52,356 bases of DNA. It comes from an uncultured Holophagaceae bacterium. GTDB lineage: Bacteria; Acidobacteriota; Holophagae; Holophagales; Holophagaceae. This document shows, in pieces, positions 22,125 through 27,246 of this stretch. The position numbers and the translations under genes were made by a program. Within the stretch, counting starts at the first letter, position 1, and each line of letters starts with the position of its first letter. The notes under the pieces are model-generated. The model did not search any database. It was given only the letters and a program-made list of their open reading frames with translations, and was not told the origin of the DNA. The stretch lies in the NCBI GenBank assembly GCA_903913215.1, contig CAIWKE010000038.1:1-52356 (forward strand). The letters run 5' to 3'.

Positions 22125-22727
22125 ATGAGCCCCCTTCGCCCCGCCTTGGTGCTCCTCTCCATCCTCCTGGCCGCACCTGTTGCGGAGGCCCAGGAACTGT
22201 CGCCACGAGTGGGTTTGGCGGCCTTCATCACGCTGCCCGCAAGCAAAGGAGCGGCCCTGTACGACTCAGGCTGGAAGCTGAGCTTCAGCATCCATGTGCG
22301 CCGTGAAGAGCTGATTGAAGGACGTGTGCGAATGGAGGTCGGCGAGTTCCCCGCCGGAAAGGGTCGCCTGGATCCAGGTGCCACGATCACTGTCCAGCGG
22401 GCGCGGACCCGGCTGGTGGGCTATGACTGGCTCATTCCTCTTGGAGAGAAGGGCCCCACAGGGCTGGATGTTATCCTGGGAATCGGGGGGGTGCACTGGT
22501 TCACTGACACCAGGGTCACCAGCCTGCCGAACAATCCCTATCCCTTTTCCTGGTCCTACTCCGACAGCGATGTCGCCTTCGCCAGCACCCTGGGCCTGCG
22601 GTACCGCCTCGCCCAGCACTTCACCCTCGAAGCCCACCATGTCTTCACCTTCAAGCCAGCCAATGGGAGCGACTTCAGTGATGGGGAGCTGAGCCACACA
22701 TCGGTTGGCCTCGGGTACAGGTTCTGA
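22125..22727 (+). CDS. Small outer-membrane beta-barrel protein
   Basis: A 200-residue protein with a signal peptide (MSPLRPALVLLSILLAAPVAEAQ) and alternating strands (WKLSFSIHVRREE, GLDVILGIGGVHWFTDT, FTLEAHHVFTFKPA) ending HTSVGLGYRF, with the terminal Phe of outer-membrane barrels. An eight-stranded OmpA/OmpW-like porin is the likely fold; no closer family is recognised. The ATG at 22125 has AAAGGA six bases upstream, which the earlier GTG lacks. Its end lies 28 bases before the aconitase-family start. Confidence 0.65.
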   Translation: MSPLRPALVLLSILLAAPVAEAQELSPRVGLAAFITLPASKGAALYDSGWKLSFSIHVRREELIEGRVRMEVGEFPAGKGRLDPGATITVQRARTRLVGYDWLIPLGEKGPTGLDVILGIGGVHWFTDTRVTSLPNNPYPFSWSYSDSDVAFASTLGLRYRLAQHFTLEAHHVFTFKPANGSDFSDGELSHTSVGLGYRF

Positions 22728-22755
22728 GCTCGGCGGCCTGTCGTACTCTGGGGGC

Positions 22756-24720
22756 ATGCTCGCCGACCCGATCTCCTTCCCAGGCCGAATTCTTTTCCTC
22801 ACGGAAGATCCCGTAGGGATTTCCCGCCAGCTCCAAGGCGAGGATTTGGATTCGGCCAATACCGGCCCCCTGCGCGACCAGATCAGCACCGACGAGATCA
22901 CCCCCGCTTTCATCTGCTACCACTACGACGAGCGCCTGGGCGACTTCCCATATTTGGGTCTGAAGTGCGGCGACACGCTGCCTGTGAAGGAGGGCGCCGT
23001 GCGTGCTGGCGGCTTCAGCGTGAGCGTGGCGGGCAAGCGCCGCGGCAAGGGCAGCAGCCGCGAGGCAAGCCCCTTCGCCGAGTGGTGCGCGGGCATCAGG
23101 CTGGTCATCGCCGATAGCTTCGAGCGCATCTACCGCCAGAACTGCCAGAACCTCGGCCTCCTAACCAGCACCGACTTCGGCCTCCTGGCCCGCATCCGCC
23201 GGGGCGAAGCCATCCCGCTCACGGAATTCACGGCGGGTCTCGATCCCGTCACCACCGAGATCGTGCGCCGGGGTGGCCTCTTCGCCTACAACGCCGCCCG
23301 CCTGACCGGTGAGGTGGCGCCCCCCCTGCCCTCCTGCGGGCAGCGCCCCATGACCTATGCGGAAAAATTGCTGGCCCGCCACGCGATGGTGGACGCCGCC
23401 GCCTCTCGCGTGGGCCTTGCGGCCGTGGCTCCGGGCGATGGGCTCTTCGTGCAGGCGGACTGGCGCTTCAGCCACGAGTACGTGACCCCCATGGCCGCCC
23501 GTTTCCTGGAGCAGGCCCTAGGTCCGAACGTGGCCCTGCGGGATCCCGCGAGCATCCTGGCCTTCCGGGACCACCTCACCTTCCTGGGGTACAGCATGGT
23601 GCCCGAACACCGGGCCATGGGTCTGCTGGATGTGGCCCAGTCCCTGAAGCCTGCCCAGGAGGCTTTCTGCGCGAAGCACGGCATCCGCCTCCACGGCGAG
23701 CTGGCCAGCGATTTGGACAGCGGCTCCGGCAGCGAGGGCATCTGCCACGTGCTCATGACTGACCGCTACGTCCTCCCGGGCCAGCTGGTGGTGGGCACCG
23801 ACTCCCACACGCCCCATGCCGGGGCCCTGGGTGCCCTGGCCTTCGGCGTGGGCACCACCGATATCGCCAACGCCTGGGTCACCGGAGATGTGCGAGTCAC
23901 GGTGCCGCCCACACTGCGGGTGCGCCTGAACGGGCGCCTGCGGGCGGGCGTGTCTGCCAAGGACCTGGTCCTATACCTCCTGGCCCAGCCCCTCATCCGC
24001 GAAGGCGGCGCCATCGGCCACGTCATCGAATACATGGGCGAAGGCCTGTTGGACCTCAACACCGACGAGCGGGCCACCCTCACCAACATGGCCGCAGAAA
24101 TTGGCGGCTTCACGGGCCTCGTGGCGCCGGACTTGGAAACGCTTAGCTTCATCAAGGAGCAGCGGGGCCTGGACCTGGTGCTGGAGCCCTGGATGCGCGG
24201 CGACGAAGGCGCGGCGTACGCCCAGACCCTGGACCTGGACTGCCCCGCCCTGGGCCCCATGCTGGCTCGGCCTGGAGATCCAGGAAATGGCCTGGCCTTG
24301 GCGGATCTACGCGAGGACACGCCCATCGACATCGCCTACTTGGGCAGTTGCACCGGCGGCAAGCGGGAGGACCTGCGCCGGGCCTACGAAGTGCTGCGCC
24401 CAGCCGCCCAGGCGGGCCGCCGAATCCCCGAGGGTGTTCAATTCTTCGTCCAGTGCGGAAGCGAGGATATCCGCCGCCATGCCACCGAACAGGGCTGGAT
24501 CGCAGCCTTCGAAGCCGTGGGGGCTGTGGTGCTGGGCAGTTCCTGTGGCGCCTGTATCAATGCGGGCCCCGGCGTGTCCACCCGCCCCAACCAGGTGACC
24601 ATCAGCGCCATCAACCGCAACTTCCCGGGCCGCAGCGGCCCCGGCCAGATGTGGCTGGCCAGCCCCGCCACCGTGGCCGCCAGTGCCCTGGCGGGCCGCA
24701 TCGTGGGGGCCCAGCCTTGA
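22756..24720 (+). CDS. Aconitase-family hydratase, swivel domain first
   Basis: A 654-residue [4Fe-4S] hydro-lyase. Residues about 1-205 are the small-subunit (swivel) domain, with DEITPAF, GKGSSREASP and NCQNLGLL. Residues about 210-654 are the large catalytic domain, with YAEKLLARHA, VGTDSHTPHAGALGALAFGVGTT and cluster cysteines in YLGSCTGGK and GSSCGACI. Conventional aconitase A has the swivel at the C terminus, and LeuCD/homoaconitase use two chains; swivel-before-catalytic resembles AcnB without its N-terminal HEAT domain. The substrate (citrate, isopropylmalate or homocitrate class) cannot be assigned. The start is the ATG at 22756 with GGGGG before it. The gene runs into the next by a TTGA overlap. 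Confidence 0.85.
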   Translation: MLADPISFPGRILFLTEDPVGISRQLQGEDLDSANTGPLRDQISTDEITPAFICYHYDERLGDFPYLGLKCGDTLPVKEGAVRAGGFSVSVAGKRRGKGSSREASPFAEWCAGIRLVIADSFERIYRQNCQNLGLLTSTDFGLLARIRRGEAIPLTEFTAGLDPVTTEIVRRGGLFAYNAARLTGEVAPPLPSCGQRPMTYAEKLLARHAMVDAAASRVGLAAVAPGDGLFVQADWRFSHEYVTPMAARFLEQALGPNVALRDPASILAFRDHLTFLGYSMVPEHRAMGLLDVAQSLKPAQEAFCAKHGIRLHGELASDLDSGSGSEGICHVLMTDRYVLPGQLVVGTDSHTPHAGALGALAFGVGTTDIANAWVTGDVRVTVPPTLRVRLNGRLRAGVSAKDLVLYLLAQPLIREGGAIGHVIEYMGEGLLDLNTDERATLTNMAAEIGGFTGLVAPDLETLSFIKEQRGLDLVLEPWMRGDEGAAYAQTLDLDCPALGPMLARPGDPGNGLALADLREDTPIDIAYLGSCTGGKREDLRRAYEVLRPAAQAGRRIPEGVQFFVQCGSEDIRRHATEQGWIAAFEAVGAVVLGSSCGACINAGPGVSTRPNQVTISAINRNFPGRSGPGQMWLASPATVAASALAGRIVGAQP

Positions 24721-24728
24721 ACGACCCC

Positions 24729-26669
24729 ATGCTCGTCGCCCGCTACCGCGCCCTGGTCCTGGCGAACCTGTCTCGACCTGGTGCGCCGACCCTCGCGCCC
24801 ACTGCCCGGGTTCTGGTGGTGGATGTAGCCCGGCAAAGCCTGGGCCTGCTGGAGGGGGATCTGCTCGCCTTCGAGGCGCGAATTTCCACGGCCCTCAACG
24901 GCGTGGGCTGCGAGCAGGATTCCTACCGCACGCCCACGGGCTGGCATCGCATCCACGCCCGCATCGGTGCTGGCGCCGAATCCGGTAGCGTGTTCCGGCA
25001 TCGCGTGGCCACCGGTGATGTGTGGCGCGGCGAGGCACGGGATGAAGACCTGATCCTCACCCGGGTGCTCACCTTGGACGGCCTCGAAGCGGGCTGGAAC
25101 CGCGGCCCGGGCCATGACTCTCTGGCCCGCTTCATTTACCTCCACGGCACCAACCAGGAGGGCCTCCTGGGGCAGCCCGTCTCCCATGGCTGCGTGCGCC
25201 TAGCCAATGCCGATGTGCTCGATCTGTTCGAGCGCGTGGCCGAGGGGGATCCTCTGCTCATCGCCGAGGACCTGGAGGGTGATACCTTCGGCCTGGGACG
25301 CCTCCACTTCGCCGGCGTGGCAGGCAGCGGCATGAGCGCCCTGGCCCAGTTCGTGGCCCTCAAGGGGGGTCGCGCCAGCGGCAGTGATCGCAGCTTCGAC
25401 CGGGGCCAGCGCCCAGAAGCCCGGGCCCACCTGGAAGCCCTGGGCGTGACGCTCCATCCCCAGGATGGCTCAGGGCTCCTGGGTGACTGCGCAGCCCTGG
25501 TGGTCTCCACCGCCGTGGAAGAGGAGGTCCCGGATGTGGCAGCGGCCCGGCGCCTGGGTGTGCCCGTGCTCCACCGCTCGGAATTGTTGGCGCACTTGGT
25601 GGGGCGCTATCGCAGCGTGGCCGTCACCGGCACCAGTGGCAAGTCCACCACCACCGCCATGATCTTCGAACTGCTGCGAGGTGCGGGGCGGGATCCCTCA
25701 GTCATCACCGGCGGTGACCTGGTGGCCCTGCAGGCCGAAGGCCGCTGGGGCAATGCCTGGGCCGGGGCCTCGGACCTGCTGGTGCTGGAGGCCGATGAGA
25801 GCGATGGCTCCGTGGTGCGCTACCACCCGGCCCTGGGCCTGCTGCTGAACCTGCAGCGGGACCACAAGGAGATGGATGTGGTGGCCGAGATGTTCCGCAC
25901 CTTTCGCGCCCAGGTGCGGGAGGAGGCCCTCGTGGGCGAGGCGGAGAACCTGCGGGAGTTCTCGGTCGGTGCCCGCACCTTTGGCTTCGCCTCCGGGGCA
26001 GATCTGCGCGGCGAGGCTGTGGTACTCGGACCAGAGGGCTCCACCTTCACGGTTCAGGGACTCGCGTTCTGGCTGCCCCTGCCTGGTCAGCACAACGTGG
26101 AAAACGCCCTGGCGGCCCTGGCCGCCTGTCAGGCCCTGGGCGTTCCCCTCACTGAACTGGTCGAGCCCTTGGCGGCCTTCCAGGGTGTGGCCCGGCGCTT
26201 CCAGGTGCTGGGCACCGTCCGGGGCGTCACAGTGGTGGACGACTTCGGCCACAACCCCGCCAAGGTGGCGGCTTCCCTTCGCACGGCCCACCTGCGGACC
26301 CAGGCCAACGACGGGCGGGTGCTGGCGGTCTTCCAGCCCCACGGTTTCGGCCCCCTGCGCTTCCTGCGGAACGATTTCGTGGCTACCTTCGCCGCGGAGC
26401 TGGCCCCGACGGACCGCCTCTGGTTTCTGGAGGTCTTCTACGCCGGGGGCACTGCGGCCCGGGACATCAGCAGCGCCGACGTCATCGCCGACATCGCGGC
26501 CCGGGGCGTAACAGCGGAACCCGCACCCTCCAGGGAGTGGCTGATCGAGCGCCTCGCAAGCGAGGCCCACAGCGGGGATCTCATCCTCGTCATGGGCGCC
26601 CGGGATCCCTCGCTCACAGACCTGGCGTGGGCCATCCTAAAGCGACTCGCGGGGCCGCCCGATCAGTAA
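24729..26669 (+). CDS. L,D-transpeptidase (YkuD)-Mur ligase fusion
   Basis: About 646 residues joining two peptidoglycan enzymes. Residues about 25-175 are a YkuD domain with the catalytic motif HGTNQEG...SHGCVRL (His139, His154, Cys155, Arg157). Residues about 190-646 are a MurC/Mpl-type ligase: GVAGSGMSALAQ, P-loop GTSGKSTTT (from 301), ADESDGS, HNVENALAALAAC, VVDDFGHNPAK and VFQPHGFG. There is no signal peptide or membrane helix, so both halves should be cytosolic. The pairing fits murein recycling: L,D-carboxypeptidase trimming of tetrapeptide (as the cytosolic YkuD protein ElsL of Acinetobacter does), then Mpl-type ligation of tripeptide to UDP-MurNAc. A TTG at 24717 is an alternative start, overlapping the aconitase stop. 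Confidence 0.88.
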   Translation: MLVARYRALVLANLSRPGAPTLAPTARVLVVDVARQSLGLLEGDLLAFEARISTALNGVGCEQDSYRTPTGWHRIHARIGAGAESGSVFRHRVATGDVWRGEARDEDLILTRVLTLDGLEAGWNRGPGHDSLARFIYLHGTNQEGLLGQPVSHGCVRLANADVLDLFERVAEGDPLLIAEDLEGDTFGLGRLHFAGVAGSGMSALAQFVALKGGRASGSDRSFDRGQRPEARAHLEALGVTLHPQDGSGLLGDCAALVVSTAVEEEVPDVAAARRLGVPVLHRSELLAHLVGRYRSVAVTGTSGKSTTTAMIFELLRGAGRDPSVITGGDLVALQAEGRWGNAWAGASDLLVLEADESDGSVVRYHPALGLLLNLQRDHKEMDVVAEMFRTFRAQVREEALVGEAENLREFSVGARTFGFASGADLRGEAVVLGPEGSTFTVQGLAFWLPLPGQHNVENALAALAACQALGVPLTELVEPLAAFQGVARRFQVLGTVRGVTVVDDFGHNPAKVAASLRTAHLRTQANDGRVLAVFQPHGFGPLRFLRNDFVATFAAELAPTDRLWFLEVFYAGGTAARDISSADVIADIAARGVTAEPAPSREWLIERLASEAHSGDLILVMGARDPSLTDLAWAILKRLAGPPDQ

Positions 26670-26706: not shown

Positions 26707-27246
26707 ATGGACGAGGCGAGAACAGCCCGGGCCGTCCGGGAATTGCTGGCCAGCCTGGGACAGGATCCGGATGCTCCTGAGCTGCGGGATACCCCGGCTC
26801 GGGTGGCGGACTTCTGGCGCGAACGTCTGGCGGGCTATGACATCGACCTGGCCGCCGAGCTGAAATCCCTGCCTGGCACCCTGGCGCCGGTGCCCGTAAT
26901 CCTCGAACGCATCCCCTTCGTGAGCACCTGCGAGCACCATCTGGCTCCCTTCGAGGGCCACGCCACCATCGGCTACCTGCCGGGCGAGGGCGGCACCGTG
27001 GGCCTGTCCAAGCTGGTCCGTGTGGTGCAGGCCTTCGCTTGGCGCCTACAGGTGCAGGAGCGCATGGCCCAGCAGATCGCCGACGCGCTACAGACCTACC
27101 TGCGCCCCGCCGCCTGGGGCGTGCATCTGGTGGCGGTCCACACCTGCATGAGCCATCGGGGTGTGAAGACTCCAGGCATCCCTGTGCGCACCACCCTACT
27201 CGGCGGGGCCTGGCTGGACCAGGCGCCCGCCCCCTTCCGGCTTTGA
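26707..27246 (+). CDS. folE: GTP cyclohydrolase I
   Basis: A 179-residue enzyme making 7,8-dihydroneopterin triphosphate from GTP for folate or pterins. Zinc ligands are Cys75 and His78 in STCEHHLAPF and Cys147 in HTCMSHRGV. GLSKLVRVVQAFAWRLQVQERM and GEGGTVGLSKL are the substrate-binding signature, and RDTPARVADFW is the usual N-terminal motif. It is slightly short (family 180-220). GGAGGCACTCCC precedes the ATG. It follows the YkuD-Mur fusion by 37 bases. Confidence 0.95.
   Translation: MDEARTARAVRELLASLGQDPDAPELRDTPARVADFWRERLAGYDIDLAAELKSLPGTLAPVPVILERIPFVSTCEHHLAPFEGHATIGYLPGEGGTVGLSKLVRVVQAFAWRLQVQERMAQQIADALQTYLRPAAWGVHLVAVHTCMSHRGVKTPGIPVRTTLLGGAWLDQAPAPFRL

Follow-up and report, generated by a model that had tools for sequence, protein, structure and literature searches.

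Introduction

Two described enzymes of wall-peptide recycling bear on the protein considered here. In Acinetobacter baumannii, loss of the trimming enzyme ElsL, a YkuD-domain L,D-carboxypeptidase, is reported to fill the precursor pool with UDP-N-acetylmuramic acid (UDP-MurNAc)-tetrapeptide and to leave fewer cross-links (PMC8649774). The second enzyme is the murein peptide ligase Mpl, which returns the trimmed tripeptide to UDP-MurNAc. Bacteria without LdcA (the S66-family L,D-carboxypeptidase) and Mpl are taken to degrade wall peptides and not to reuse them, as has been argued for Caulobacter and many others (PMC13046382). Here we describe a gene in a 52,356-nucleotide stretch of DNA (contig CAIWKE010000038.1 of assembly GCA_903913215.1; hereafter, the window) from an uncultured Holophagaceae bacterium of the phylum Acidobacteriota, which joins a YkuD domain to a Mur ligase in one polypeptide. 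We consider it likely that this fusion is a single-chain cytosolic enzyme of murein-peptide salvage, which would convert tetrapeptide to tripeptide and then to UDP-MurNAc-tripeptide. Together with a corresponding gene pair in Krumholzibacteriota, it hints at machinery devoted to the reuse of peptides from old cell wall.

Results

A YkuD domain and a Mur ligase share one reading frame across the Holophagaceae

The initial annotation of the window described a YkuD domain joined to a complete Mur ligase in one open reading frame, with the motifs HGTN, SHGCVRL (including Cys155), GTSGKSTTT, ADESDGS and DDFGHNP. The translation, the Pfam domains and recurrence in relatives bear this out: positions 24729-26669 form a single uninterrupted frame encoding 646 residues, and all of these motifs are found in it, with ADESDGS lying in the ligase half (Table 1). 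YkuD domains are marked by an HG..N / S.GC.R motif, and the N-terminal half carries HGTN...SHGCVR and matches the Pfam YkuD model over its cut-off; Pfam finds no S66 domain (PF02016, LdcA type) in the fusion. Most relatives have the N-terminus MxDPVxAARYRAL, so the true start is probably TTG 24717 (MNDPMLVARYRAL), 12 nucleotides (nt) upstream of ATG 24729 and overlapping the stop codon of the preceding aconitase-like gene. The contig that makes up the window, C38, comes from a 3.9 Mb genome with 95% completeness.

For conservation we drew 297 genomes of the phylum Acidobacteriota, 270 of them outside the family. The fusion architecture is present in all 20 other genus members drawn, 19 times as a single match and once (G190) as two matches within one open frame, with a linker insertion between them. 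Full-length fusions also occur in three other genera of the family (G158, G115 and G097; 62-70% identity), and at a contig end in a further family genome (G284) the ligase part alone is seen. The fusion was not found in the family genomes G182 (1.2 Mb) and G292. Beyond the family, the highest score in the 270 genomes is 217 bits, typical of an ordinary MurC. Among the matches listed, the nearest named relatives of the fusion come from a Geothrix sp., at 80% identity, and from a Holophagaceae bacterium, at 79%, so the host is very probably a Geothrix or closely related to one. Since the architecture recurs across the genus and in other genera, a chance joining and a sequencing or assembly artefact are ruled out. 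The distance from the SHGCVR motif to the start of the ligase is 33-47 residues in 23 fusions and longer in G190.

No export signal is evident at the N-terminus of the fusion by a simple hydropathy score: the maximum 15-residue Kyte-Doolittle mean is 0.88-1.69 in the 22 fusions with an assigned start, versus 1.81 and 1.82 in two exported-looking proteins of the same genome, a small margin obtained with this score and no signal-peptide predictor.

The YkuD half resembles ElsL

The nearest NCBIfam model to the YkuD half is that of ElsL (NF040925), which it matches at 120.2 bits, under the cut-off of 270; the next YkuD-type model listed scores 25.7 bits. An unfused homologue from Krumholzibacteriia scores 127.4 bits against the same model. 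Ten residues around the presumed active site (H139, G140, T141, N142, S152, H153, G154, C155, V156 and R157) are invariant across 18 aligned fusions, and C155 is also invariant in 11 YkuD rows that include the unfused protein of locus L045. Comparative evidence supports the assignment of the YkuD half as a putative ElsL-like L,D-carboxypeptidase. No relative turned up when viral contigs were scanned with the YkuD half. The published survey of ElsL orthologs excluded proteins longer than 200 residues and names mainly Proteobacteria, and Verrucomicrobia (PMC8649774); fusions would be dropped from such a survey because of that size limit.

The ligase half falls in a clade apart from MurC and Mpl

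The ligase half scores 288.3 bits against the MurC model TIGR01082 (cut-off 335.1) and 112.1 bits against the Mpl model TIGR01081 (cut-off 388.7). With both scores under the curated cut-offs, the earlier label of a 'MurC/Mpl-type' ligase is too broad. Among the 74 ligases of a phylogenetic tree, 37 clade members, the fusion's ligase group, stand apart from MurC (28) and Mpl (9) across a branch supported at 100/100. This tree leaves out 10 of 39 clade rows (L043, L044, L051, L054, L057, L059, L060, L062, L063 and L069), 25 of 46 MurC rows of L075-L122 and 3 of 12 Mpl rows, and adds eight Krumholzibacteriota ligases. When MurD, MurE and MurF of E. coli, which have very long branches, are added, MurC and Mpl still separate from the clade, and the clade no longer forms one side of a branch, so the root of the tree is unsettled.

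Residues at the acceptor site also set the clade apart. In Haemophilus influenzae MurC, L-Ala is believed to be held by Tyr346, His348, His376, Arg377 and Arg380 (PMC3060825); the fusion has Phe, His, His, Gly and Pro at these positions. All 48 MurC rows have Arg380, where the 39 clade rows all have Pro or Ser; Arg377 is kept in 45 of 48 MurC rows, and no clade row has Arg there. Four residues mark the clade, each absent from the 48 MurC rows: Asn509 (39/39 clade rows), Lys512 (34/39), Gly574 (36/39) and Arg625 (37/39); every MurC row has His at the position of Asn509 and Gly at that of Arg625. The motifs of 12 Mpl rows, EPRS, SNGG or SNGS, and E(G/A)DEYD, are replaced in the fusion by QPHG, GARD and EADESD. 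These motif counts are partly circular because the clade rows were sorted by score and motif beforehand; the tree is free of such circularity.

An AlphaFold2 model of the ligase half is confident, mostly above 90 in predicted local distance difference test (pLDDT) score. Its closest fold is MurC (1p3d; Z 47.0, root-mean-square deviation (rmsd) 1.9 over 436 residues), followed at lower scores by the Mpl structures 3eag (Z 33.1 over 288 residues) and 3hn7 (Z 31.4, rmsd 4.7, 433 residues). The shared fold in this model does not decide the acceptor. Judged by its sequence, the ligase belongs to a third clade, distinct from Mpl and from MurC, and it lacks the acceptor motifs of both; the idea of an Mpl half falls away. 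An Mpl fused to LdcA is ruled out, as the defining features of neither family are present.

The clade ligase pairs with two unrelated L,D-carboxypeptidase families

At the 'Candidatus Krumholzibacteriia' locus L045, YkuD (with the motif SGGC) and a clade ligase are separate neighbouring genes. Across 80 Krumholzibacteriota genomes, a YkuD match of at least 139 bits occurs in 36, and we inspected the loci of the best 30 of these 36 matches. A ligase lies directly downstream of YkuD at 25 of the 30 loci; 23 of these ligases score 535-634 bits (one is broken by a stop), and two that are cut by contig ends score 352 and 497. In all 25 the ligase occupies the same shifted frame, with its domain beginning -1 to 44 nt after the YkuD stop, and in all 25 a TTG in the ligase frame lies exactly 11 nt before that stop. 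In most of the 25, this TTG comes after a purine-rich stretch, for example GAAGGAGAT or GAAGGGGAT. Starting the ligase at the TTG gives an overlap of 14 nt between the two genes; at some loci the ligase could also start further upstream. With the TTG as start, the 14-nt overlap is fixed across divergent Krumholzibacteriota (25 loci of L156-L185). An overlap that places the ligase TTG inside the end of YkuD is a candidate for tight translational coupling, and a small frame change at this junction would give the arrangement found in Holophagaceae.

The spread of the clade was read from the best 80 of 593 matches in a contig scan and is a lower bound. By record titles, the clade occurs in at least seven phyla. 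Relatives with about 36-54% identity are stand-alone genes in records titled Elusimicrobia, Bacteroidota groups, Fibrimonadaceae, Riflebacteria or Ozemobacter, Alphaproteobacteria and Lentisphaeria, and one half of the pair in Krumholzibacteriia. At two alphaproteobacterial loci (L066 and L068) an S66 gene with both N and C domains directly follows the clade ligase, and the same order is found in a third alphaproteobacterial genome (G325), judged by coordinates. The clade therefore pairs with two unrelated L,D-carboxypeptidase families, YkuD and S66, and it is mainly this pairing that leads us to read the ligase as a murein-peptide ligase.

Genome counts for the clade cover 28 genomes for MurC, and 29 for Mpl, S66 and ElsL-type proteins (the genome of L072 added); the genomes of L057, L060 and L082 lie outside these counts, near-duplicates of L069 aside. 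No Mpl over cut-off is present in any of the 29. A separate MurC over cut-off is found in 19 of 28, and a weaker second MurC-like match in two.

Several clade loci have further features. G325, the 1.0 Mb genome of L072, has two clade-like ligases, one of them adjoining the S66 gene. In the genomes of L046, L047 and L052 no MurC-like gene other than the clade ligase was found; at L047 it overlaps dapB, and at L046 it stands beside a MurD-like gene. In the genomes of L066 and L068 (G316 and G318; 1.2-1.3 Mb), which hold the clade ligase with its adjacent S66 gene, a search with the MurC model gives one and two matches only, and MurD, MurE and MurF are thus not seen either. This pattern could reflect either gaps in these metagenome-assembled genomes or a salvage-only wall.

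No Mpl-like match in ten genomes of the fusion's family

The genome with the fusion encodes a canonical MurC (540 bits) and an AmpG-type permease (421 bits, cut-off 350), and the AmpG model is matched over cut-off in 34 of 41 family genomes. Another YkuD protein of the genome has the look of an exported protein when its translation is begun at an internal Met. A search of this genome for Mpl found none. The sole S66 (LdcA-type) protein found in it starts MHQDRRTFLQ (MHQDRRTFLQTSLLATLVASF), an N-terminus resembling a twin-arginine translocation (Tat) signal; S66 proteins of two other genus members carry DRRSFLQ or NRRSFLQ near the N-terminus. These Tat signals were judged by eye. We had looked for a cytosolic LdcA elsewhere in the genome and rejected this candidate because the only S66 protein found looks Tat-exported. 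The initial annotation would have been undercut by separate, fully functional ldcA and mpl genes; the genome has no mpl, and its S66 protein looks exported. At locus L141 (3085-5579; G000, contig C3), a Tat-like S66 peptidase is followed by an open reading frame that by eye resembles an M14-type carboxypeptidase; the two are perhaps a periplasmic murein-peptide unit.

Across 129 Acidobacteriota genomes we drew the line for an Mpl-like match at 250 bits, between the scores of Mpl and MurC. At least this score is reached in 85 genomes, 53 of them over the curated cut-off, and in none of ten genomes of the fusion's family; in another family of the same class both genomes have an Mpl-like match, each under the curated cut-off. 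S66 proteins occur in 86 of the 129 genomes and in 3 of the 10. An S66 gene is present anywhere in 72 of the 85 Mpl genomes and adjoins mpl in 31, with the domain matches 527-686 nt apart, so a carboxypeptidase beside a ligase is an established layout in the phylum. The fusion's family is without what looks like this ldcA-mpl unit and has the fusion instead. Since the ten family genomes are close kin, this swap counts as roughly one event, not many.

Features of the fusion locus and neighbouring genes

Coordinates are collected in Table 1. Upstream, the aconitase-like protein has its small swivel domain (PF00694, residues 108-154) ahead of the large domain (PF00330, 252-664). Of 22 relatives, 13 have an aconitase-like gene no more than 1.5 kb upstream of the fusion, and one has FolE within 1.5 kb downstream.

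Table 1. Features of the YkuD-ligase fusion gene and its neighbours (positions in the window; residues numbered in the 646-residue translation P0001)
Feature	Position	Strand	Remarks
Aconitase/isopropylmalate-isomerase-like protein, upstream	22705..24720	+	stop overlaps the TTG start of the fusion
Fusion coding sequence	24717..26669	+	likely start TTG 24717 (650 residues); alternative ATG 24729 (646 residues, P0001)
YkuD (ElsL-like) domain	24807..25262	+	residues 27-178; Pfam PF03734, 63.9 bits, cut-off 23.4
HGTN motif	25143..25154	+	residues 139-142; invariant in 18 aligned fusions
SHGCVR motif	25182..25199	+	presumed catalytic Cys155 at 25191-25193
Interdomain linker, short	25263..25301	+	residues 179-191, from Pfam domain limits
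Mur ligase, third clade (N, M and C domains)	25302..26603	+	residues 192-625; Pfam Mur_ligase N/M/C
ATP-binding loop GTSGKSTTT	25629..25655	+	residues 301-309
DDFGHNP	26238..26258	+	residues 504-510; includes clade-marking Asn509
QPHGFGPL	26334..26357	+	residues 536-543; Gly539 and Pro542 at the positions of MurC Arg377 and Arg380
GARDPSL	26595..26615	+	residues 623-629; includes clade-marking Arg625
GTP cyclohydrolase I (FolE), downstream	26707..27246	+	not conserved as neighbour

Discussion

A proposed trimming and ligating enzyme for murein peptides

In the salvage pathway that we propose, the YkuD half would use Cys155 to cleave the terminal D-Ala off recycled tetrapeptides, and the ligase half would join the resulting tripeptide to UDP-MurNAc, a third clade thereby doing the job of Mpl. 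With trimming coupled to ligation, tetrapeptide that has not been trimmed would be kept from entering the precursor pool, and the fusion would stand in for the ldcA-mpl pair found in other Acidobacteriota. We infer both activities, their order and this quality-control rationale from comparative evidence; channelling of the substrate between the halves is speculation. The pathway set out in the initial annotation is probably right: its pairing of an L,D-carboxypeptidase with a peptide ligase in recycling agrees with the ElsL model, the gene pairing, the absence of Mpl and the presence of AmpG, and its identification of the ligase as Mpl gives way to the third clade.

Several observations weigh against this proposal. 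The YkuD half is poorly modelled, with pLDDT in the 30s over much of its length in the AlphaFold2 model and a mean of 51 when it is modelled alone (four sequences). The ligase is nearer MurC than Mpl in both profile and fold. No other MurC-like ligase was found in 7 of the 28 clade genomes: two Elusimicrobiota, L046, which the tree places with them, and four Alphaproteobacteria whose genomes measure 1.2-1.5 Mb. In these seven either the clade may act as MurC, at the L-Ala step, or the genomes may be incomplete. At L047 (Elusimicrobiaceae) the clade ligase follows dapA, a semialdehyde dehydrogenase gene and dapB. Among the 29 clade genomes, 9 are without S66 and 27 without an ElsL-type match, so several clade members lack an obvious trimmer. 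Outside Krumholzibacteriota and the three Alphaproteobacteria we saw no carboxypeptidase gene beside the clade ligase, an absence that is weakly tested: the idea that every clade member has such a neighbour was dropped after a regular-expression look at the sequence flanking 33 loci, among which L088 is an ordinary MurC, returned none, with patterns too narrow to catch the S66 genes of L066 and L068 or the SGGC motif of L045. In Krumholzibacteriota, 5 of 30 YkuD loci have no ligase alongside (three have none within 1.5 kb and two are near a contig end), and Mpl over cut-off is missing from all 80 genomes, with or without the pair, so the exclusion of Mpl is uninformative there.

Some of these points would fit a divergent MurC, the second of the genome, that attaches L-Ala or some other single amino acid, with the YkuD half trimming an unrelated peptide. 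Such an enzyme would account for the best profile (288 bits), the best fold (Z 47.0) and the genomes where the clade is the only MurC-like ligase detected. It sits poorly with the 540-bit MurC of the same genome and the separate MurC in most clade genomes, with the loss of Arg at the Arg377 and Arg380 positions in every clade row, and with the pairing with two L,D-carboxypeptidase families, for which it would give no reason; we think it unlikely. A ligase half that takes L-Ala alone would also have undercut the initial annotation; the lost Arg positions speak against it, and the seven genomes named above leave it some probability. Slightly less probable still is the salvage of some other peptide, whether intact tetrapeptide, L-Ala-D-Glu dipeptide or a modified stem, the accepted form being determined by the YkuD half. 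The exact acceptor cannot be read off acceptor-site residues that differ from both MurC and Mpl, and Psychrobacter Mpl is reported to take tetra- and pentapeptide too, slowly (PMC3060825), yet a partner drawn from either of two unrelated L,D-carboxypeptidase families points to tripeptide as the shared intermediate. That the YkuD half is an L,D-transpeptidase, in keeping with a domain family that includes the catalytic domains of such enzymes, and that the fusion acts in the envelope is highly improbable, given an N-terminus that is not of the exported type by simple hydropathy score, ElsL as the nearest model, and a Mur ligase that requires cytosolic ATP and UDP-MurNAc.

For the salvage enzyme we propose a broader view, which we favour by a narrow margin: the clade would be a third, so far unrecognised class of UDP-MurNAc peptide ligase, partnered by YkuD or S66 trimmers of unrelated folds, locked to YkuD by a 14-nt overlap in Krumholzibacteriota and built in Holophagaceae into one proofreading chain, onto which untrimmed tetrapeptide would not easily be loaded. 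We found no report of the fusion or of the ligase clade in the titles and abstract openings of openly licensed PubMed Central papers. A second trimmer-ligase pair, one that goes unnamed by the standard Mpl and LdcA models, would alter the count of recycling bacteria. The fixed overlap and the fusion also provide a natural experiment on the reasons for coupling the two steps, and a third acceptor specificity would be added to an enzyme family studied as a drug target.

Comparison with known systems

The fusion can be set beside five described arrangements. ElsL of A. baumannii (PMC8649774) has the nearest curated model to the YkuD half, the same Cys motif and a cytosolic place in recycling, which would be expected of the YkuD half as well; an export signal is not evident in the fusion either, by a hydropathy score with a small margin. 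ElsL differs in being stand-alone, whereas here YkuD is fused and reaches 120 of the required 270 bits. A member of the ElsL family would be expected to cut tetrapeptide and to leave pentapeptide. Mpl shares the three Mur domains and the proposed reaction, tripeptide plus UDP-MurNAc (PMC3060825), but belongs to a separate clade; the fusion lacks EGDEYD, EPRS and SNGG and reaches 112 bits against a cut-off of 388.7. MurC is closest in profile and fold and shares the GKS/T loop and ADESDGS, but in the fusion the positions of Arg377 and Arg380 are taken by Gly and Pro, HNP stands where MurC has HHP, AGGT where it has AGE and GARD where it has GAG, and the same genome encodes a separate MurC. The MurE-MurF and MurC-Ddl fusions (NCBIfam PRK11929 and PRK14573) likewise place wall-precursor steps in one chain; unlike the fusion described here, they are biosynthetic rather than devoted to salvage and have no carboxypeptidase domain. 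Finally, in the ldcA(S66)-mpl neighbourhood of other Acidobacteriota, as in the fusion, an L,D-carboxypeptidase-family gene adjoins a murein peptide ligase gene, but both genes come from families other than those of the fusion's two halves.
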